Below, piece by piece: positions 4,423 through 13,235 of a DNA stretch of 64,000 nt. Where the stretch lies: assembly GCF_014197015.1 (NCBI RefSeq), contig NZ_JACIET010000002.1:1302001-1366000 (forward strand), written 5' to 3'. Below the pieces are notes generated by a model. The model did not search any database. It was not told the DNA's origin and saw nothing but the letters and a program-made list of their open reading frames with translations. How positions within the stretch are numbered: the first letter of the stretch is position 1; each line of letters opens with the position of its first letter. The translations under genes were made by a program, and so were the position numbers. This DNA is from Niveibacterium umoris. GTDB taxonomy: Bacteria > Pseudomonadota > Gammaproteobacteria > Burkholderiales > Rhodocyclaceae.

Positions 4423-5112
4423 ATGAAAAACGCAATGCTTTGCGCCCTTTTCGGAGCGCTGCCGCTGTGGGCCATCGCTGCGCCGGCGGCACCCCTTGTG
4501 GCCACGGTTCAGGTCGAGTCGCGCTGGGTGACGGCTGACGGGGTCGAGAAGACCACCCGCTTCGTCGAACGCCTGGTGCGCAGCGACAACCATGTCTGGA
4601 CCGAACGCATCAAGCCGGCCGGCACACCGTCCGCCACGCCGGATGAACACGGGCAGCCGGGCGAAACGCATCTGCACCCCTCCGACCTGGCCGGTGCCGC
4701 GAAGCTCGTCGCACGGGACAAGCAGGGGCAGGTGACGCTGAGTTTCGTCCGTGCCGATCTGAAGACCCGCGTCGATCTGAGTCCGCGTGACTTCGATGCG
4801 GTCGGCTTCGACGGCAAGTGGGACAGCGCATGGTCGCTGATCGATCCTGCCTTGATTTCTCGCCTCGCACCGAGCGCTCGCGCATCGGATGTGGCCGGTG
4901 CGCGCTGGTACGAACGGCACGCCCGCGGCGAGTACATGCGCGTGCTGTGGTCGGCGGATCTGGCGCTTGCGCTGCGGGTCGAGTCCGGGCGGGACGATGG
5001 CAGCCAGCGTACCCGCACGGTGGTGACGATCGCGCCCGCCGGGCAAACAGCGCAGCCGTGGAATGCCCTCGCTTCCTATTCCCGCAAGGATTACACCGAC
5101 CTGCTCGACTGA
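4423..5112 (+). CDS. Secreted protein of unknown function
   Basis: A 229-residue protein. ATG 4423 gives a signal peptide (MKNAMLCALFGALPLWAIAAPA); the longer in-frame start at 4360 adds an arginine/cysteine-rich leader that does not look real. The mature part is probably beta-rich (TVQVESRWVTADGVEKTTRF, then ARWYERHARGEYMRVLWS). I recognise no domain or catalytic motif. It reads in the same direction as the phosphatases but is separated by about 166 bases and a hairpin, so it may be its own transcription unit. A strong terminator follows. Confidence 0.75.
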   Translation: MKNAMLCALFGALPLWAIAAPAAPLVATVQVESRWVTADGVEKTTRFVERLVRSDNHVWTERIKPAGTPSATPDEHGQPGETHLHPSDLAGAAKLVARDKQGQVTLSFVRADLKTRVDLSPRDFDAVGFDGKWDSAWSLIDPALISRLAPSARASDVAGARWYERHARGEYMRVLWSADLALALRVESGRDDGSQRTRTVVTIAPAGQTAQPWNALASYSRKDYTDLLD

Positions 5113-5134
5113 TCGGCGCTGCGCGTCGCAATGA

Positions 5135-5160
5135 AAAAGGCAGCCAACTGGCTGCCTTTT
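5135..5160. terminator. Bidirectional rho-independent terminator
   Basis: An 11-base perfect stem (AAAAGGCAGCC / GGCTGCCTTTT) with an AACT loop. The stem ends in A-tract/T-tract on both sides, so it can stop transcripts of the secreted-protein gene (+) and of the converging mscS-like gene (-). Confidence 0.9.
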
Positions 5161-5177
5161 GTCATCTTGCGTCGCGC

Positions 5178-5984
5178 TTATCCCTGACGTACATGGAAGT
5201 GCTGTTCCGGCACCGGGTAGCCGGCGGCGCCGCAGGTGTCGCGGATCGCCTTGTTGGTGTCGAAGTACACCTGCCAGTAATGGTTGGTGTGGCAGAAGGG
5301 ACGCACCGCCAGCACCGGCCCCATCGGCGTGAAGTCCAGCACCTCGACGGTCGGTGTCGGTTCTGCTACGACGTTGGGTATCTGTACCAGCGCTGCCTTC
5401 AAGCGCGAGATCGCGTCATTCACATCGACCGCGTGGTTCAGTTGCGCGGTGCGCTCGACACGGCGGTACGGGTTGGTCGAGTAGTTCTGGATCGTGTCGC
5501 CGAAGATCTTGTTGTTGCCGACGATGGTGAGCACGTTGTCAGGCGTGTTGATCGCCGAAGCGAAGAGGCCGACCTCCATCACGGTGCCTTCGATGCCGCC
5601 CACCTTCACATAGTCGCCTACCTTGAACGGCCGCAGCACGACGAGGAAGGCGCCCGCCGCGAAGTTGGCCAGCAGCCCGGCCCAGGCCGCGCCGATCGCG
5701 ATGCCCATGGCGGCAACCAGGGCGGCGAACGAAGTGGTCTCGAGCCCGAAGTAGCCAAGGATCGCAACCACCAGCACGATGTTCAGCGCGACGCTGACGA
5801 TGTTGCCGATGTAGCGCAGCAGGGTCGGGTCGACATGCTGCCGGGTCATTGCGGCGGATATGCCACGCACCGCCAGGCCGATCAGCCAGCGGCCGACGAT
5901 CCAGACTGCAATCGCGCCGAGGATCTTGAGTCCGAAGGTGGCCAGTTGGGTGCTGACGACGTCGATGATGTTCTGGAAGTTCAT
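5178..5984 (-). CDS. mscS: Small-conductance mechanosensitive channel (MscS family)
   Basis: A 268-residue inner-membrane channel that opens under membrane tension to release solutes. Start ATG 5984 is preceded by AGGAG at good spacing; an open frame continues upstream but is unlikely to be coding. There are three hydrophobic segments within the first 130 residues, then the pore-lining TM3 with the Gly/Ala-rich pattern AAMGIAIGAAWAGLLANFAAG and the conserved FLVVLRPFKVGDYV start of the beta domain. The C-terminal alpha/beta region ends at PVPEQHFHVRQG. Length is normal for the minimal MscS type. It sits alone, downstream of the lut genes. Confidence 0.92.
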   Translation of the reverse strand: MNFQNIIDVVSTQLATFGLKILGAIAVWIVGRWLIGLAVRGISAAMTRQHVDPTLLRYIGNIVSVALNIVLVVAILGYFGLETTSFAALVAAMGIAIGAAWAGLLANFAAGAFLVVLRPFKVGDYVKVGGIEGTVMEVGLFASAINTPDNVLTIVGNNKIFGDTIQNYSTNPYRRVERTAQLNHAVDVNDAISRLKAALVQIPNVVAEPTPTVEVLDFTPMGPVLAVRPFCHTNHYWQVYFDTNKAIRDTCGAAGYPVPEQHFHVRQG

Positions 5985-6145
5985 GCCGGGGCTCCTGGGG
6001 TGATGTGGGGCTGTCGGACGGCGGGCGCTATCGGGTTGCGCCGACGGACGACGCGTTCCCGATGCTCGGGACTTCAGTTTGCGGCGTGATGACGCGCGGG
6101 TGCAATACCCGTGGCTGGCAACAACGCCACCGCGCGGTGCTTGAC
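5985..6145. other. Short intergenic gap between lutC and mscS-like gene
   Basis: 161 bases without a gene. It should hold the mscS promoter on the minus strand; I see the AGGAG ribosome site next to the start but no convincing promoter boxes. Confidence 0.3.
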
Positions 6146-6751
6146 TCAGCCGACGAGCACGACGTGCACCGCGCGCGGGCCGTGGGCGCCGATCTGTATC
6201 GTTTGCTCGACGTCGCCGGTGCGCGACGGTCCGGCGACCAGGTTCAGTGCGCGCGGCAAGGTGCCCAGCGCGCGCAGGCGCGCCCAGACCGCCTCCTGGT
6301 TCGCGACGAGGTCCGCGAGGTGCAGCGTGATCACATGGAACTCCGGTACGAAGTTGTGCGTGATCGGTGAGTCGGGGCCCGATGCCATGACCAGCGTGCC
6401 GCTCTCGGCGATGCCGGCGAAAGCAAGTGATACGGCTGCGACCGTGTCCTTGCGGGCGGCGTCGCATCTGCGTGTGAGGGTGTCGGGCCAGGGGAGCCTG
6501 GCAAGCGGTGCCGCCATCCACAGCGTTGCGATGGGCGCCCGGGATTCCAGCCACGCCAGCGCGCGAGACGGCAACTCGTCCAGCGTGGCAATGCGTTCAT
6601 GCGTGCAGGCGTGAAGCGTGGCGCGCTCGATGAAGCGCGCGAGGGATGCGGTTTGGGTGGTGGGCTGTGCAGGCGCAAGCATCGGCGTGCCGCCCGTCGG
6701 CACCGTGTTCAGCGCGGCGCGGATGCCCGCGAATACCGCCTCGCGGCTCAT
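6146..6751 (-). CDS. lutC: L-lactate utilisation protein LutC/LldG (LUD domain)
   Basis: A 201-residue LUD-domain protein, the third component of the LutABC (LldEFG) complex that oxidises L-lactate to pyruvate. Start ATG 6751 overlaps the lutB stop as ATGA, so the two are translationally coupled. An upstream in-frame start at 6775 would add eight residues inside lutB and is less likely. LUD features: the AGIAESGTLVMASGPDSPI segment (nucleotide-like binding loop), HVITLHLADLVANQEAVWARL, and the closing GPSRTGDVEQTIQIGAHGP, which is very typical of the family. Confidence 0.93.
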   Translation of the reverse strand: MSREAVFAGIRAALNTVPTGGTPMLAPAQPTTQTASLARFIERATLHACTHERIATLDELPSRALAWLESRAPIATLWMAAPLARLPWPDTLTRRCDAARKDTVAAVSLAFAGIAESGTLVMASGPDSPITHNFVPEFHVITLHLADLVANQEAVWARLRALGTLPRALNLVAGPSRTGDVEQTIQIGAHGPRAVHVVLVG

Positions 6752-8160
6752 GACCCACCCCGCTGTTTGCGCCACTGCTCAAGAAAGGTTTCGCCGCTCG
6801 GTGCCGGCAAGTCGCGGCTCTGTGTCCATGCATGTGCGCCCGGCAAGGCGCTGATGTGACCCGCGTGTCCCGCACGGGCCCGCAGCAGGCGAATGCCGAA
6901 GCGTTCGAGGGCGTGATACAGCCCCGGCTGCCGCGCGACCCAGCCCCAGGCGGCCAGCAGCGTGCGCTGCCGTGCCGGCATCAGGCCCGCCTTCACCTGT
7001 TCGCTGCGCAGCGTGCGGATCAGCTCGGTGAGCGGAATCTTCACCGGGCACACGCTCTGGCAGCGGCCGTTGAGCGTGCAGGCGTTGGGCAGGTCGTAGT
7101 GCTCGGCCATGCCGTTGAACAGCGGCGTCAGGATCGCCCCCATCGGCCCCGGATAAACCCAACCGTAGGCGTGCCCCCCGATGGCGCTGTACACCGGGCA
7201 ATGGTTCATGCAGGCGCCGCAGCGGATACAGCGCAGCATGTCGCGGAACTTGCCGCCCAGCATCTTCGAGCGGCCGTTGTCGACCAGCACGACGTGGTAT
7301 TCCTGCGGCCCGTCCGGGTCGCCGGTGCGGCGCGGGCCGGTCGAGATCGTGGTGTAGCACTCGGTGTCCTGCCCGGTCGCGCTGCGCGCGAGGATGCGCA
7401 GGAACACCGAGAGGTCGTCCAGCGTCGGCAGCACGCGCTCGATGCCGGAGGTCACGATATGCACCCGCGCCAGCGTCTGCGACAGGTCGCCATTGCCCTC
7501 GTTGGTGACGATGACGCTGCTGCCGGTTTCGGCGATCAGGAAGTTGCCGCCGGTGATGCCGACGTCGGCCCGGAAGAACTTCTCGCGCAGCACATGGCGC
7601 GCTTCATTCACCAGCCCGGCGACGGATTCTTCGCGCGGCCGACCGGGGTGGTGCGCCTCGAACAGATCCGCCACCTGCTCGCGGGTCTTGTGGATCGCCG
7701 GCGCGATGATGTGCGAGGGCGGTTCCTGCGCGAGCTGAATGATGTACTCGCCCAGATCAGTCTCGACGACCTTGTAGCCCGCCGCTTCCAGCGCCGGGTT
7801 CAGCGCAATCTCCTCGCTGACCATCGACTTGCCCTTGCAGATCGTCTTCGCGTTGGCGTCGCGGCAGATGCCGAGGATGATCTCGCGCGCCTCGGCCGCA
7901 TCGGTGGCGAAATGGACCTTGCCGCCGGCGGCCCCTACAGCGGCAGCGTAGCGTTCCAGCCAGACGTCCAGTTCGCCGAGCACCGCATTCTTGATCTGCG
8001 CCGCACGGTCGCGCAGCGCTTCGAAGTCCGCCAGCTCGGCCACCGCGCTGGCACGTTTGGCGACGAACAGTGGCTTGAAGTTGCCGAGCGCTTTCTGCAG
8101 CGAGGCGTCTTTCAGCGCGAGCGCGGCGCGTGATTCAAAGTTTCCGGAGGCGGTACTCAT
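6748..8160 (-). CDS. lutB: L-lactate utilisation iron-sulfur protein LutB/LldF
   Basis: A 470-residue protein: an N-terminal LUD domain (about residues 65-300) and a C-terminal region with two 4Fe-4S ferredoxin-type cysteine clusters, CIRCGACMNHCPVY and CTLNGRCQSVCPVKIP. With LutA and LutC it forms the membrane-associated L-lactate oxidising complex. The start ATG 8160 overlaps the TGA of the lutA remnant upstream, and its ribosome-binding site GAGGAG lies inside that remnant's last codons. It overlaps lutC downstream. The intact lutA lies more than 1.7 kb upstream, which is unusual. Confidence 0.95.
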   Translation of the reverse strand: MSTASGNFESRAALALKDASLQKALGNFKPLFVAKRASAVAELADFEALRDRAAQIKNAVLGELDVWLERYAAAVGAAGGKVHFATDAAEAREIILGICRDANAKTICKGKSMVSEEIALNPALEAAGYKVVETDLGEYIIQLAQEPPSHIIAPAIHKTREQVADLFEAHHPGRPREESVAGLVNEARHVLREKFFRADVGITGGNFLIAETGSSVIVTNEGNGDLSQTLARVHIVTSGIERVLPTLDDLSVFLRILARSATGQDTECYTTISTGPRRTGDPDGPQEYHVVLVDNGRSKMLGGKFRDMLRCIRCGACMNHCPVYSAIGGHAYGWVYPGPMGAILTPLFNGMAEHYDLPNACTLNGRCQSVCPVKIPLTELIRTLRSEQVKAGLMPARQRTLLAAWGWVARQPGLYHALERFGIRLLRARAGHAGHISALPGAHAWTQSRDLPAPSGETFLEQWRKQRGGS

Positions 8161-8316
8161 CGCGGCTCCTCATCGCCGATCGCAGGGCCGTGTCTGCTTC
8201 CGGCACCTCATGCGGATAGCCGCCTGTCCAAGCAGTGCAATGGCCGAAGTACCGAATTCCGGCCGGTATGCGTTCTTGAGGCAAGCGACCCCTGCTTGCG
8301 GTGTTCGATACAGCAT
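8157..8316 (-). pseudogene. lutA: Decayed lutA remnant overlapping lutB
   Basis: Read on the minus strand, this begins ATG CTG TAT... with a GGGGGAG ribosome site like that of intact lutA. It encodes pieces such as CLKNAYRPEFGTSAIALLGQ, matching CLMNAMRPNIGFSAVALLEQ of LutA at 9888-10655. After about 38 codons the frame breaks. The last nine codons of lutA survive (PAIGDEEPR-stop against PAIGDEDPR-stop), and the TGA overlaps the lutB ATG. Roughly 210 central codons, including all iron-sulfur cysteines, are missing. As it stands, an ORF of 48 codons could still be made (stop at 8170). It seems kept because its end holds the lutB ribosome-binding site. Confidence 0.85.
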
Positions 8317-8382
8317 CGTCCGACTCCCCCGTCGTGTGCGCATGCCACGATAGGCGCGAGCTGCGATTCACTCAAGTACAAA

Positions 8383-8411
8383 TCGCCCCGCCTTGGACGT
8401 AGACGGGGCGA
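8383..8411 (-). terminator. Hairpin after the second lipoprotein gene
   Basis: TCGCCCCG / CGGGGCGA inverted repeat (8-base stem, 13-base loop) just downstream of the lipoprotein stop. On the minus strand it is followed by TTTGTACTTGAG, a modest U-rich tail. The CTTGAG after the hairpin is also found after the equivalent hairpin at 10714-10744, which marks these as duplicated positions. Confidence 0.5.
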
Positions 8412-8417
8412 GCTGCC

Positions 8418-9494
8418 TCAGAACACCGAAGCGAGGGCCTGACGCGTCACGACGCGGGTCGTGTCGACTGTGCCATTGCCATCCGCGTCCAGCGCCAGCG
8501 TGGCGGTGTCGTCTACGAACGTGATGTCGAGCGTTGCTGGTTTTCCTTCAAGCGAGATTCGCATACTCCCGGACACGATCTTCCCGTCTGCCGAATACCG
8601 GATTGGGCTTGTGGTGCGAGTCACGATCAAACCGGCTAGTGGCGTATTGCTGCCGCCGTCACCGAGACGGGTGCGCGACGAGAAGTCCACCGCGTATGCG
8701 TTTGCGTCGAGCTCGGTCAGGGTCGCCGTGTAGCTGTTGTCCACGTTGCCTATCGGAAGCTGGCGATCGGCCTCGATGTGCATGATGAAGGGTGTGCCCT
8801 GCATCGTCGTTTCAGCATGTCCCGCGACGCTACGCAATTTGAAACTCAGCGTGCCGCCGAGTTGATTGCTTCGGTTCCCTTCGCTTGTCGCGAACGAAAC
8901 AAAGTTGACGGAATAGTCGGCAGACGCCACGACGCCACTCGCTCGCGTCAGCGACGTGATCATGATCTCGAAGTACCCACTGGTCGTCTCGGTGCCATCT
9001 TTGCAAGCGTTCGCCGTTACGCGGTAGGGCTCATTCTGGTCGGCCTGTTTGTTGAGGTTGCTGTCCACAACCGAGATGTTCAGATTTCCGCCGTCAGGAC
9101 ACGGCACGGTGGCGACAGGCAACAGCAGGTCAGGCGGAGGGGGCGGTGACAGCGCCAACGCGGGGGCGGCTGACTGAGACAGGCTGACGTTTGCGCTCAC
9201 AGGGACGGCCGCCAGTGCTGCATCGACATTGCGCAGCACTGCAGATGACGCGCCTGCACCAGAAAAGCTACCTAGCCCCGGGTCGAAGCTTGCAACGTCG
9301 GCGACCAACATGCCCGACGCGGCGATCAGGTTCATGTTGTCGCCGGTGATCTCGGTCGGCGTGGTGCTGGAGGGGGGCGGCGGTGGCGGCGGTGGCGGCG
9401 TATCGCCGCTGCCACCACCACCGCAGGCGGCAAGAGTCAAACTGAATGCTGTCGTACTGAGCAGCCCGCGAATCGTGGAACGCTGAAGCTTCAT
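8418..9494 (-). CDS. Lipoprotein of unknown family, copy 2 (between lutA and lutB)
   Basis: A 358-residue predicted lipoprotein. Signal peptide with lipobox LAAC followed by Gly-rich and poly-Pro linkers (about residues 24-42). AGGAG precedes the start. It is paralogous to 10752-11744: both share a C(T/P)(N/D)GGN(V/L).I.V.D.N block, an NAC..GT.T..G block and a C-terminal D.D..G..(E/D)TTR.V segment that resembles a calcium-binding Asp loop. Two conserved cysteines could form a disulfide. No enzyme motif is visible. Third-position G/C bias is weaker than in flanking genes. Its place within the lut operon suggests expression with lactate oxidation genes, but its role is unknown. Confidence 0.8.
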   Translation of the reverse strand: MKLQRSTIRGLLSTTAFSLTLAACGGGGSGDTPPPPPPPPPSSTTPTEITGDNMNLIAASGMLVADVASFDPGLGSFSGAGASSAVLRNVDAALAAVPVSANVSLSQSAAPALALSPPPPPDLLLPVATVPCPDGGNLNISVVDSNLNKQADQNEPYRVTANACKDGTETTSGYFEIMITSLTRASGVVASADYSVNFVSFATSEGNRSNQLGGTLSFKLRSVAGHAETTMQGTPFIMHIEADRQLPIGNVDNSYTATLTELDANAYAVDFSSRTRLGDGGSNTPLAGLIVTRTTSPIRYSADGKIVSGSMRISLEGKPATLDITFVDDTATLALDADGNGTVDTTRVVTRQALASVF

Positions 9495-9887
9495 GACAAA
9501 CTCCTGGGGTATGGATCATGCGCAATTACGCTGGCATGGTCGCAGAGCACACACCCTGCCGGTGTGATTAACGTCACCTGAATTGTTCGATCACACGCCG
9601 GATCCGGTACACGCAGCGGCGACGGTGGGCGAGCGACGACGTCGAGGGCACGCTTTTCGACTCACCGCAGATGGTGCGGACATCGTTTCGGCGGCGTCTG
9701 GTCAAGATGCGTCGGTGCGCGTGAGTCGCCGCGGCGTAACGCGTGATACTTGATTCCTCGTGGTGTACGGCGAGCCGGCGATGGCCTTTTCGATATGCGT
9801 CGCGCGGTACCGGGAATCGGCAATCTGGCTGCGGCCATCATCACAACGTCAGTGTGGGGGGCGATTCTCCACCGCCCTGGCTGATGC
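9495..9887. other. Gene-poor 393 bp between lutA and lipoprotein copy 2
   Basis: No supportable gene on either strand. It holds the CRP/FNR-like palindrome listed separately, and otherwise unremarkable sequence. It probably marks the junction of the [lipoprotein + lutA] duplication, since intact lutA ends here instead of running into lutB. Confidence 0.45.
9563..9578 (-). promoter_or_regulatory. CRP/FNR-type palindrome upstream of lipoprotein copy 2
   Basis: TGTGA-TTAACG-TCACC matches the CRP consensus TGTGA-N6-TCACA at 9 of 10 arm positions. It lies about 70 bases upstream of the lipoprotein start, in the 393-bp gap. This would fit catabolic control of lactate genes, but a single match of this kind can occur by chance. 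Confidence 0.4.
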
Positions 9888-10655
9888 TCAACGTGGATCC
9901 TCGTCGCCGATCGCCGGGCCGTCTGCGCGACCGGCGAGCACTTCGGCCGTGTGCAAGACCCGGATGCGCGAACCCTTGCGCTTGAGCCTTCCGGCGATGT
10001 TCAGCAGGCAGCCGAGGTCGCCGCCCAGCAGGGTGTCTGCGCCGGTCGCTTCCAGCGAGCGGATCTTGTCGTCCACCATCTTTTCCGAAATCGCCGGGTA
10101 CTTCATGCAGAAGCTGCCGCCGAAGCCGCAGCACACCTCCGCGTCGTCCATTTCGAGCAGCGACAGGCCCTTGACCTGTGCAAGCAGCGACCGGGGCTGC
10201 TGCTTCACGCCCAGCTCGCGCAGGCCGCTGCACGAATCGTGGTAGCTCGCACGGCCGGCATAGGTGCTGCGAATGTCGACCTTCAGCACGTCAGAGAGGA
10301 ATGACAGCAGCTCGTGGGACTTGTCGGCCAGCGCTTGCGCCCGTGCAGCCCATTCGGTGTCGTCGGCCAGCATCTGCGGATACTTGTGCAAGGTGCCGAT
10401 GCACGAGCCGGAGGACGCGACGACGTAGTCGAAGGCTTCGAACTGCGCGATCAACTGGCGCGCGAGCGCGCGCGCGGTGTCATCGGTGCCGGCCGACCAG
10501 GCGGGTTGTCCGCAACACGTCTGGGTCACCGGCACTTCGACCCGGCAGCCCGCTTGTTCGAGCAACGCAACGGCCGAAAAACCGATATTCGGCCGCATGG
10601 CATTCATCAGGCAGGTGGCAAACAGGCCAACCCGCGGTGTGTGGTGCTGCGGCAT
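9888..10655 (-). CDS. lutA: L-lactate utilisation protein LutA/LldE (cysteine-rich CCG domains)
   Basis: A 255-residue protein with two CCG-type cysteine-rich domains, the electron-carrying partner of LutB. Motifs: QTCCGQPAWSAG (about residues 46-57), SSGSCIGTLHKYP, and EVCCGFGGSFCMKYP in the second half. GGGGGAG precedes the start. Length is normal, so this is the functional copy. Unlike the usual order it is not next to lutB: a lipoprotein gene and a lutA remnant lie between. Its own end has no gene overlap and runs into a 393-bp gap. Confidence 0.95.
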   Translation of the reverse strand: MPQHHTPRVGLFATCLMNAMRPNIGFSAVALLEQAGCRVEVPVTQTCCGQPAWSAGTDDTARALARQLIAQFEAFDYVVASSGSCIGTLHKYPQMLADDTEWAARAQALADKSHELLSFLSDVLKVDIRSTYAGRASYHDSCSGLRELGVKQQPRSLLAQVKGLSLLEMDDAEVCCGFGGSFCMKYPAISEKMVDDKIRSLEATGADTLLGGDLGCLLNIAGRLKRKGSRIRVLHTAEVLAGRADGPAIGDEDPR

Positions 10656-10713
10656 CCGACTCCCCCGTCGTGGCAGACCAACACGATAGGCCGGACGCGC
10701 CGTGTGCTCAAGT

Positions 10714-10744
10714 CGAGCACCGTCTCGATCTGAGACGGTGCTCG
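10714..10744 (-). terminator. Strong hairpin between lipoprotein copy 1 and lutA
   Basis: A perfect 13-base stem, CGAGCACCGTCTC / GAGACGGTGCTCG, with a 5-base loop lies 7 bases after the lipoprotein stop. No U-run follows (ACTTGAGCAC), so it may be an mRNA-stabilising or partial-termination element that sets lipoprotein and lutA levels apart. Confidence 0.55.
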
Positions 10745-10751
10745 CAGCAGG

Positions 10752-11744
10752 TCAGAGCTTTTCGAGATCGCTCAGTTTGACGGTGCGCGTGGTTTCGCTG
10801 ACGCCGTCACCATCGCTGTCGAGATCGAGGCGCGCAGAGTCGCCGCCAAGGTAGGTGATCTTCAGCACCGATTTGCCCGAGACGACCTTGAGTCGGCCGC
10901 TGTCAGGATAGCCGTCGGTGGCGGCGTGGCGGGTCAGCACGGCTTGTTCGGTCGTAACCGCGAGTGCGCCGGTGTAGGCCGTGCTGGTGACCCTGACTTG
11001 CTGGTTGAGCGTGAGCGTGGTTTGGGAACCGTCATCTGCCAGCGAAAGCGTGGCCGTGGGCAGTGTCGTCGAATGCCGCAACTGGCCGCCGGTGCTGTAT
11101 TCCGACGTCGACAGGTTGGTCGCCGTCAGCGTCAATGTGCTGGCGGTGAGCGAGGTTTGCTGCAGATCGAGGCTGAGCGTGCCGGCCGCGGTGTAACGCC
11201 CATCGGCCGCTGCGACGTTCAGGTTCTGCAGCGAAACCGAGAAGGTGGCGTGGCCGGTGCCGCTCTGGAAGCTGCCAGTGGCCGAGCCGAGCGTGGCGCT
11301 GATGCTGCCGTTGATGGTGTCGGTGCCTTCGGCGCAGGCATTGAAGCTGGCGGTGAAGGAGTCGCCGCCATCGAGGGTCTGTGAATTGTTCGCGTCGTTC
11401 ACGGTGATGCCGACGTTCCCGCCATTGGTGCAGTTCTGCGTGATGCTCTGTTGCGCCGCGGCGGTCGGCGGCGTGCCGGCGCTGCGGGCGGCAGTCTTGA
11501 CGGTTGCAACCGGCCCGGCCCCGAACGTCAGCGTCGACACCATCGAGCCCAGTGATGCGCTGCTGCTTGCCGCGCTGACCGTCGCAGCGGCGACGGTGTC
11601 TGCATTGCTGCTCGTGATCGCGGTGTTGCTGACCGGCGGATCGATGACGGTATTCGAGCCGCCGCCGCCGCCTCCGCAGGCGCTCAGAAGCAGGCCGAGT
11701 GCTGCTGCGCTGACGAGTGAGGTGGAGCGTTCTAGCGTGGTCAT
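10752..11744 (-). CDS. Lipoprotein of unknown family, copy 1 (upstream of lutA)
   Basis: A 330-residue predicted lipoprotein: signal peptide, lipobox LSAC, then a six-glycine run. AGGAG precedes the ATG. The mature part is Ser/Thr/Ala-rich and probably beta-stranded. Conserved with 8418-9494: CTNGGNVGITVNDANNSQ (one cysteine), FNACAEGTDTINGS (second cysteine) and, near the end, LDLDSDGDGVSETTR, a DxDxDG-type calcium-loop-like stretch. I do not recognise a named family. It is the first gene of the minus-strand run leading into lutA. Function unknown; an outer-membrane anchored sensor or binding protein is only a guess. Confidence 0.8.
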   Translation of the reverse strand: MTTLERSTSLVSAAALGLLLSACGGGGGGSNTVIDPPVSNTAITSSNADTVAAATVSAASSSASLGSMVSTLTFGAGPVATVKTAARSAGTPPTAAAQQSITQNCTNGGNVGITVNDANNSQTLDGGDSFTASFNACAEGTDTINGSISATLGSATGSFQSGTGHATFSVSLQNLNVAAADGRYTAAGTLSLDLQQTSLTASTLTLTATNLSTSEYSTGGQLRHSTTLPTATLSLADDGSQTTLTLNQQVRVTSTAYTGALAVTTEQAVLTRHAATDGYPDSGRLKVVSGKSVLKITYLGGDSARLDLDSDGDGVSETTRTVKLSDLEKL

Positions 11745-11812
11745 GTGTGTCTCCTCTGGTTCAAGCCAATTAGTTTAATTCTGTCGGTGCGTTGGAAAAC
11801 TTGCGAGGAACT

Positions 11813-12367
11813 TCAACTCGCTTTGCGCGCACCTGCGGGCAGTACACGACCGCCCCGGCGGCGCCCGGCGGTCGGCGCGACGATGCCGAAGCCGTGTCCC
11901 GCATGGGCATGGCAGATCGCGCAGGCGAGCGCATCGGCGGCATCCGATTGCGGCACGCCGCCGAGTTGAAGCAGGCGCACCACCATGTGCGAAACCTGAT
12001 CTTTGGTCGCGCGCCCTTGTCCGACGACGGCCTTCTTGATCTGCATCGTGCCGTATTCGGCGACCGGCAGGCCCGCGGTGGTGAGCGCCGCAATGGCGGC
12101 GCCCCGCGCCTGGCCGAGCAGCAGCGTCGACCACGGGTTCTTGTTGAGAAAGACCTCTTCGATGGCCGCCTGTTGCGGTGTGTATTTGAGGATCACCTCG
12201 CGGAGGCTGTCGAACACCACGCCAAGCCGATGCGGTAACGATTCGCGCTCGTTGGTCTTGATGCAGCCGCTGGCCACATAGACCAGCTTCGGGCCGTATT
12301 TGTCGATGACGCCGAAGCCGCTGCTCTGCAGGCCGGGGTCGATGCCAAGGATGCGGATCGGTTGCAT
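11813..12367 (-). CDS. ruvC: Holliday junction endonuclease RuvC
   Basis: 184 residues, normal for RuvC, which cleaves Holliday junctions on RuvAB-bound DNA. Start ATG 12367 gives the canonical [14 protein letters not shown]-terminus with catalytic Asp10; longer in-frame starts add unrelated arginine-rich residues. Further acidic active-site residues lie in [11 protein letters not shown] and [13 protein letters not shown]. The gene is followed by the lipoprotein/lut genes and preceded by an EamA transporter, and not by ruvA, which is found 41 kb away. Confidence 0.95.
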
Positions 12368-12377
12368 CGGATGCCTT

Positions 12378-13235
12378 TCAGCGTGGGCGTGCGAGCCACA
12401 CACCGGTAACGGCCGCGAGCATACCCGGCAAGGCCAGGCCGGTGAGGGTTTCACCGAAAACCGCCCAGGCGAGCAACGCGGTGGTCGGTGGCGTGAGGTA
12501 GAACAGGCGCGCGACATTGACGGCACTGCCCCGGCGGATCAGCAGATTGAGCAGGCTGATCGCGCCGATCGAGAGCACCAGCACCAGCCAGCCAAGCGCA
12601 AACACGAAATGCGGCGTCCAGTCGATATGCATGGTCTCGGTGGCGCAGGCGACGGGCAGCGTCAGCAGCGCGCTGGCTGCGAACTGCACGACCGACCCGG
12701 CACGCAGGTCAAAGCGTGGACAGAATCGCTTCTGGTAGAGCGTGCCAAGCGTGATCCCCAGCAGCGCGACGAGCGCCGGAGCGAGCATGCTCACGACCTC
12801 GGTGCTCGGTACGGCGCCGGTTTTGTGTGCGACCACCATGGCGACGCCCGCAAAGCCCAGCAGCAGCCCGATCCACTGGCGCGTGACAACGCGCTCACCC
12901 AGCAAGGCGCCGGCGCCGAGCGCCGTCAGCAGGGGCTGGATGCCGACGATCAGCGCGGTAATGCCGGCCGGGAGACCGCGGTGGATGGCGGTGAACACGC
13001 CACCAAGATAGAGCGCGTGGAGCAAGGTGCCGCTGATGGCGATGTGCATGATCTGCCGGCCATCGCTCGGCCAGCGTGCGTGGGCCGCCAGCGCCAGGCC
13101 GCTCATCAGGACGATCACCACGACATAGCGCAGGAGCAGGAAGGTGAGGGGCTCCGCGTTCGGCAGGCCCAGCTTTGCGCCGATGAAGCCGCTGCTCCAC
13201 AGCAGCACGAAAAGCAGCGGTGTGAACTGGGTCAC
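12378..13235 (-). CDS. EamA/DMT-family transporter
   Basis: A 285-residue inner-membrane protein with about ten hydrophobic segments in two repeated EamA halves (first half about 3-135, second about 145-280). Typical cues: [14 protein letters not shown] at the start, [21 protein letters not shown] at the end of repeat 1, and [20 protein letters not shown] in repeat 2. Such proteins export metabolites or amino acids, but the substrate cannot be read from sequence. It lies 10 bases upstream of ruvC and 7 bases after the small gene 13243-13479, so the three may be co-transcribed. Confidence 0.88.

Follow-up and report, generated by a model that had tools for sequence, protein, structure and literature searches.

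The lutABC (ykgEFG) operon for L-lactate oxidation has been described as highly conserved (PMC3924224). Among overlapping gene pairs, translation was strictly coupled in 13 of the 14 that were tested (PMC6728339), and a process of homology-facilitated illegitimate recombination has also been described (PMC3240628). The locus reported here was not found described among the matches listed, as titles and beginnings of abstracts, in the literature on lutABC, illegitimate recombination, Niveibacterium and overlapping-gene remnants. It lies in the window, a 64,000-nt stretch of the genome of Niveibacterium umoris, and is best explained as a lut operon with two stacked blocks, in which a remnant of lutA would now provide lutBC with its promoter, leader and ribosome site, and lutA would form a separate unit. 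The probability of this reading is put at roughly 0.7.

The lut locus and its relatives

The gene order on the minus strand, which carries all of the features described below, is yebC, an eamA-like gene, ruvC, lipoprotein A, lutA, lipoprotein B, the lutA remnant, lutB and lutC. The names yebC, eamA and ruvC are presumed from the look of the proteins, and we take the type A and type B genes to specify lipoproteins from their N-terminal sequences. Intact ruvC (nt 11813–12370) marks the left side of the locus in each of the four congeners with the same layout (tblastn synteny). It is followed by the type A gene (330 aa, nt 10752–11744), which groups with those of two congeners (G003 and G006) and not with type B, and for which Pfam and NCBIfam searches gave no match. 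A perfect hairpin (nt 10715–10743, by folding) lies 3' of this gene and directly 5' of the promoter-like boxes of intact lutA (CTTGAGC, 17 nt, TATCGT; nt 10683–10712); it has no T-run and is absent from the terminator scan list. Intact lutA (255 aa, nt 9888–10655) has two CCG domains and is the only full lutA found by searches of the genome. It is followed by decayed pieces of lutB and ruvC and then by the type B gene (358 aa, nt 8418–9494), which is 70% identical to the gene directly 5' of lutA in congener G001. A terminator-like hairpin 3' of the type B gene (nt 8383–8411) was found by both terminator scan and folding, the number of terminator-like sites in the scan being at shuffle level (2 found, 2.0 expected).

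Beyond the remnant are lutB (470 aa, nt 6748–8160), which scores above the cut-off of TIGR00273 and has LUD, Fer4_8 and LutB_C domains, and lutC (nt 6146–6754), which has a LUD domain and the start of which was picked by synteny. The genes lutA, lutB and lutC are all present and intact in the genome; they are not contiguous, with about 1.7 kb from the end of lutA to lutB and a lipoprotein gene and hairpin intervening. A search for known RNA elements in the leader gave no Rfam match at the gathering threshold in nt 5000–13000. The eamA-like gene (nt 12378–13235) scores 73.9–74.4% against each of four congeners, though G001 and G006 share 85.6% there, and this roughly equal distance possibly reflects exchange.

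Four of the six congeners (G001, G003, G004 and G006) carry ruvC, one lipoprotein gene, lutA, lutB and lutC in that order and in single copy. In all four, lutA lies directly 5' of lutB and overlaps it by ATGA, and the ribosome site 5' of the lutB ATG is inside lutA (GAGGAG in G001, G003 and G006; GAGGGG in G004). Congener G002 gave no lutB match, and G005 (L132) has only distant lut genes (40% for lutA, 46% for lutB) in the order lutA-lutC-lutB. A wider survey covered the best 80 of 123 lut loci found in named genomes, among them the three records already represented by G003, G004 and G006. The lutA-lutB overlap amounts to 4 nt in 10 of the 80 and to 1 nt in 19; lutB begins 0–50 nt after lutA in 43, 51–500 nt after it in 3 and further away in 1. 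In the other 4, lutB was not found on the lutA strand; one of these four loci extends only 211 nt past lutA. Thus lutB overlaps lutA or starts no more than 50 nt from its stop in 72 of the best 80, and, as the earlier note had proposed, a lutA-lutB overlap was the ancestral layout. The one locus with a larger gap (L118, nt 5001–9591, from a draft MAG) has 2464 nt and at least two long ORFs between lutA and lutB, and is another split lut operon.

The lutA remnant and the tandem block

The earlier note had proposed that the remnant keeps the 5' end of lutA, with its ribosome site, and the last codons, the middle having been lost, and alignment at the DNA level with intact lutA confirms this for both ends. 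Over 49 nt the 3' part of the remnant (nt 8156–8204) matches the lutA 3' end with an alignment score of 29, against a mean of 11.4 and a maximum of 23.5 for 500 dinucleotide shuffles of nt 8140–8220. The 5' part (nt 8200–8377) aligns with the lutA leader and about the first 45 codons, the best alignment scoring 52.5; for nt 8200–8360 the observed score was 50.5, against a mean of 12.5 and a maximum of 19 in 500 shuffles. As judged from the alignments the lutA remnant is real, and it is without about 200 lutA codons. Also as described, GAGGAG (nt 8166–8171) stands five bases 5' of the lutB ATG (nt 8160–8158), and the lutA-frame TGA (nt 8159–8157) overlaps that ATG.

Other details needed revision. 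The remnant had been placed at nt 8157–8316 and is indeed found there, but the homology begins further 5', at promoter-like boxes (CTTGAGT, 17 nt, TATCGT; nt 8347–8376), and includes the lutA ribosome site GGGGGAG (nt 8324–8330); the statement that only the lutB end of the gene remains is accordingly incorrect, and the remnant is one piece of a larger tandem block. A 48-codon ORF does run from the old lutA start (nt 8316–8170), but it is frame-shifted, is out of the lutA frame at its 3' end and stops short of the overlapping TGA, at a TGA of its own nine bases 5' of the lutB ATG. Selection on this ORF is unsupported, the frame being open in 557 of 2000 shuffles, which is the level of chance. 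A deletion via short direct repeats in lutA is also unsupported, as the candidate repeat was matched by many control pairs: as good were 141 of 1220 in the intact copy, and 65, 33, 49 and 170 of 1220 in G001, G003, G004 and G006, respectively.

The block consisting of the ruvC 3' end, a lipoprotein gene, the lut promoter, lutA and the lutB 5' end occurs in two head-to-tail copies that meet at a novel lutB/ruvC joint, where about 16 lutB codons adjoin the last half of ruvC in alignment. On the lutB side of the joint is a decayed 5' stub just 3' of intact lutA (nt 9843–9891), in which 20–23 of the 45 positions after the overlap match lutB of each of five genomes when kept in register, and 0–4 of 199 offsets were as good (0 for G004 and G006). 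On the other side is a decayed ruvC 3' fragment of about the last 90 codons (nt 9574–9842), of which nt 9586–9830 align with scores of 30.5, 34.5 and 35 to the ruvC genes of N. umoris, G001 and G006; shuffle means were 13.5–14.0 and none of 200 shuffles was as good for each ruvC. The fragment passes a TGA where the stop of ruvC would be and continues into the spacer that G001 has between ruvC and its lipoprotein gene. An extension of the lutB stub into nt 9586–9830 was rejected, with 30 and 10 of 200 shuffles as good as the alignment to lutB of N. umoris and G001, respectively. Since a lutB stub and a ruvC fragment lie between the blocks, the unit is present twice and both lutA copies were once joined to a lutB start.

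Order of the two blocks

A simple recent tandem duplication was rejected because the two lipoprotein genes of N. umoris are not sisters (AU p = 6e-7): one belongs to a clade with G003 and G006 (type A) and the other to a clade with G001 and G004 (type B), separated at 100/100. As each clade is common to other species, neither block arose simply by recent copying of the other. Whether the two block copies are mutually closest relatives has a mixed answer overall, rejected by the lipoprotein genes and weakly favoured by the lutA leader and 5' end; a tree built from the leader and about 43 codons pairs the remnant with the intact copy (82/86) and rejects a grouping of the remnant with G001 (p = 0.009), both copies being on long branches. 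The type A genes of G003 and G006 are 92% identical in amino acids though G003 is sister to G001; the G003 row ended at a frame break, and both are draft MAGs in which mis-assembly is possible for these near-identical cassettes. From these sequences, the slot between ruvC and lutA seems to hold a lipoprotein cassette that exchanges alleles between species. In the G003 and G006 loci (L130 and L131) lutC reaches only 67% at the nucleotide level, and the cassette borders are the ruvC end (G003) and the lutA start.

The earlier note regarded the distant intact lutA as the duplicate. This does not follow from the arrangement, in which the intact copy adjoins intact ruvC, has a decayed lutB start of its own and is the sole complete lutA found, each copy once had a lutB start behind it and the two lipoprotein genes do not pair as sisters. 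It would nevertheless be upheld under a first history, compatible with the main reading and offered tentatively, in which DNA of a related species recombined upstream, with an illegitimate join into the native ruvC, so that ruvC, lipoprotein A and intact lutA would be incoming and the native lutA would survive as the remnant. The separate clades of the two lipoprotein genes and the apparent mobility of the cassettes between species both favour it. At 14 ruvC sites specific to N. umoris, the ruvC fragment agrees with the other four species at 10 and with N. umoris at 2, but the changes at those sites could postdate the event, and over 269 columns the fragment is little closer to the others (157 identical to G001, 153 to G003, 150 to G004, 141 to G006) than to N. 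umoris itself (144). In the 17 columns of non-coding spacer after CTTGAG, one of which is shared with the second box, the remnant is closer to G001 (11/17) and G004 (12/17) than to the intact copy (7/17), whereas the leader tree, with its long branches, joins the remnant to the intact copy. Also against this history, yebC, eamA and ruvC yield the same tree as rpoB and gyrB.

The rpoB+gyrB tree is (G004,(N. umoris,(G006,(G001,G003)))) and rejects a grouping of N. umoris with G001 and G003 (p = 2e-7). Taken jointly, yebC, eamA and ruvC agree with it (p = 0.043 against that grouping), while lutB and lutC together place N. umoris with G001/G003 (95/97) and reject the species-tree grouping (p = 0.035). 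This difference points to a second history, which also fits the main reading and is somewhat unlikely: ruvC, lipoprotein A and intact lutA would be native, and the ruvC fragment, lipoprotein B, the lutA that is now the remnant and lutBC would come from a G001-like lineage. However, the species tree is not rejected by lutB alone (p = 0.10) or lutC alone (p = 0.077), and the upstream signal stems from eamA, with yebC alone and ruvC alone giving no resolution. The lutBC signal may itself stem from G006, in which lutBC is unusually distant from that of G001 (87.5% in lutB and 67.5% in lutC, as against 85.6% in eamA), and the right-hand end of such a transfer was not located. The last third of intact lutA, placed by the second history in the native block, likewise groups with G001/G003. 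While the whole lutA gene gives no resolved placement, its first 500 nt group with G004 (96/95) and the rest with G001/G003 (98/97), and by this measure intact lutA looks mosaic. It is 92–98% identical to lutA of G001 in nt 496–675 and 68–82% identical in the first 450 nt; part of nt 496–675 is also highly conserved among the other species, and mosaic origin, gene conversion and plain constraint are all possible.

A third history, in our estimate an unlikely one, would make the doubled block the ancestral state of the genus, with two divergent lipoprotein alleles in tandem, each with a lut promoter and lutA, that other species collapsed to one (type A in G003 and G006, type B in G001 and G004) through recombination at the repeats of the ruvC or lutA ends. 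In that case the window would hold the surviving intermediate of an allele-switching locus, and the lutA remnant would be the scar that froze it. The main reading, that the remnant is the start region of lutBC and lutA a separate unit, is independent of which block came first.

Conserved signals and comparison with known systems

CTTGAG (6/6) and CCTATCGTG (9/9) are identical among the remnant, the intact copy, G001 and G004. G003 and G006, which have the type A cassette, carry only CTTGAG and CCTA of the boxes, with no TATCGTG there. The boxes are weak matches to the sigma-70 consensus, and a consensus promoter scan of nt 8000–10800 found no promoter, the boxes being below its threshold; the promoter role of the remnant boxes is therefore a weaker proposal than the start-signal role. 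In 17 columns around the lutA ribosome site, the remnant matches the intact copy at 17/17, G001 at 14/17 and G004 at 15/16. Its coding part is far less similar (78/119 to the intact copy, 75/119 to G001 and 73/119 to G004, with G001 and G004 identical at 102/126), while its last 28 nt match at 24/28, 25/28 and 26/28, respectively (25/28 between G001 and G004). Relative to G001, the contrast between the 3' end and the coding part of the remnant is significant (Fisher p = 0.007), whereas between G001 and G004 it is not (p = 0.41), which indicates that in the remnant only the coding part has decayed faster. Against this, the coding parts of the remnant and of intact lutA both differ from G001 (75/119 and 95/126 identical), and the contrast between them reaches only p = 0.04. 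By the counts for its 3' end the lutB ribosome site in the remnant looks selectively kept, in an arrangement known from one genome and with a constraint that rests on 28 plus about 30 bases. The proposal that this site explains what survives is supported for the 3' end, but the boxes and the lutA ribosome site survive too.

The intact copy has the opposite pattern. At its 3' end GAGGAG has become GAGGAT, with loss of the lutB ribosome site, and the lutB ATG has become TTG. This reciprocal loss, set against the lutA codons missing from the remnant, is the main evidence that the remnant is the start signal of lutBC. Pairwise dN/dS values for intact lutA are 0.11–0.13, compared with 0.10–0.20 among relatives, and the gene is under purifying selection like that in relatives. 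Since it is also the sole full lutA found, LutABC is probably still produced, by two units together.

Once there were two copies of lutA, each would have been free to lose what the other supplies. In the upstream block, what would be the source of LutA is retained, and the start of lutB has gone together with its ribosome site; downstream, the promoter-like boxes and the ribosome sites of lutA and lutB remain, presumably as working signals, and about 200 of the lutA codons are missing. In this way the ancestral lutABC operon would have been split into separate transcription units for lutA and lutBC, both with a copy of the promoter and with the type B lipoprotein gene and terminator-like hairpin lying between them, and the remnant would act as promoter, leader and ribosome-binding site for lutBC. 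The coupling of lutA to lutB via their overlap is lost here, and the short ORF might perhaps still bring ribosomes to the lutB start. Alternatively, lutB could be expressed from another site and the remnant could be a passive leftover of a chance deletion, as the negative promoter scan and the chance-level openness of the 48-codon ORF would allow. This is improbable given that the boxes and ribosome sites are where identity is concentrated and that the hairpin 5' of the boxes may stop readthrough from the lipoprotein gene.

Read as two stacked blocks with the remnant serving lutBC, the locus is tidy but ordinary genome tinkering. It provides an example of gene overlap constraining loss, in which a protein was expendable while the start signal that it shared with its neighbour stayed, and the opposite happened in the other copy. 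It also indicates how a metabolic operon may come apart into two units with all its genes preserved. Remnants of this kind are easily mistaken for small genes in annotation or overlooked.

Compared with homology-facilitated illegitimate recombination, one homologous and one illegitimate end could give the lutB/ruvC joint, although the homologous end was not located here and an ordinary tandem duplication gives the same joint. The ancestral lutA-lutB pair resembles other ATGA termination-reinitiation pairs in its overlap and in having the ribosome site inside the upstream gene; unlike them, the upstream gene has here decayed, and the stop met by a ribosome is nine bases 5' of the downstream start. 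As in lutABC (ykgEFG) operons, lutA (CCG), lutB (LUD, Fer4_8 and LutB_C) and lutC (LUD) are all present, but in N. umoris a lipoprotein gene and the remnant of a second lutA stand between lutA and lutBC.
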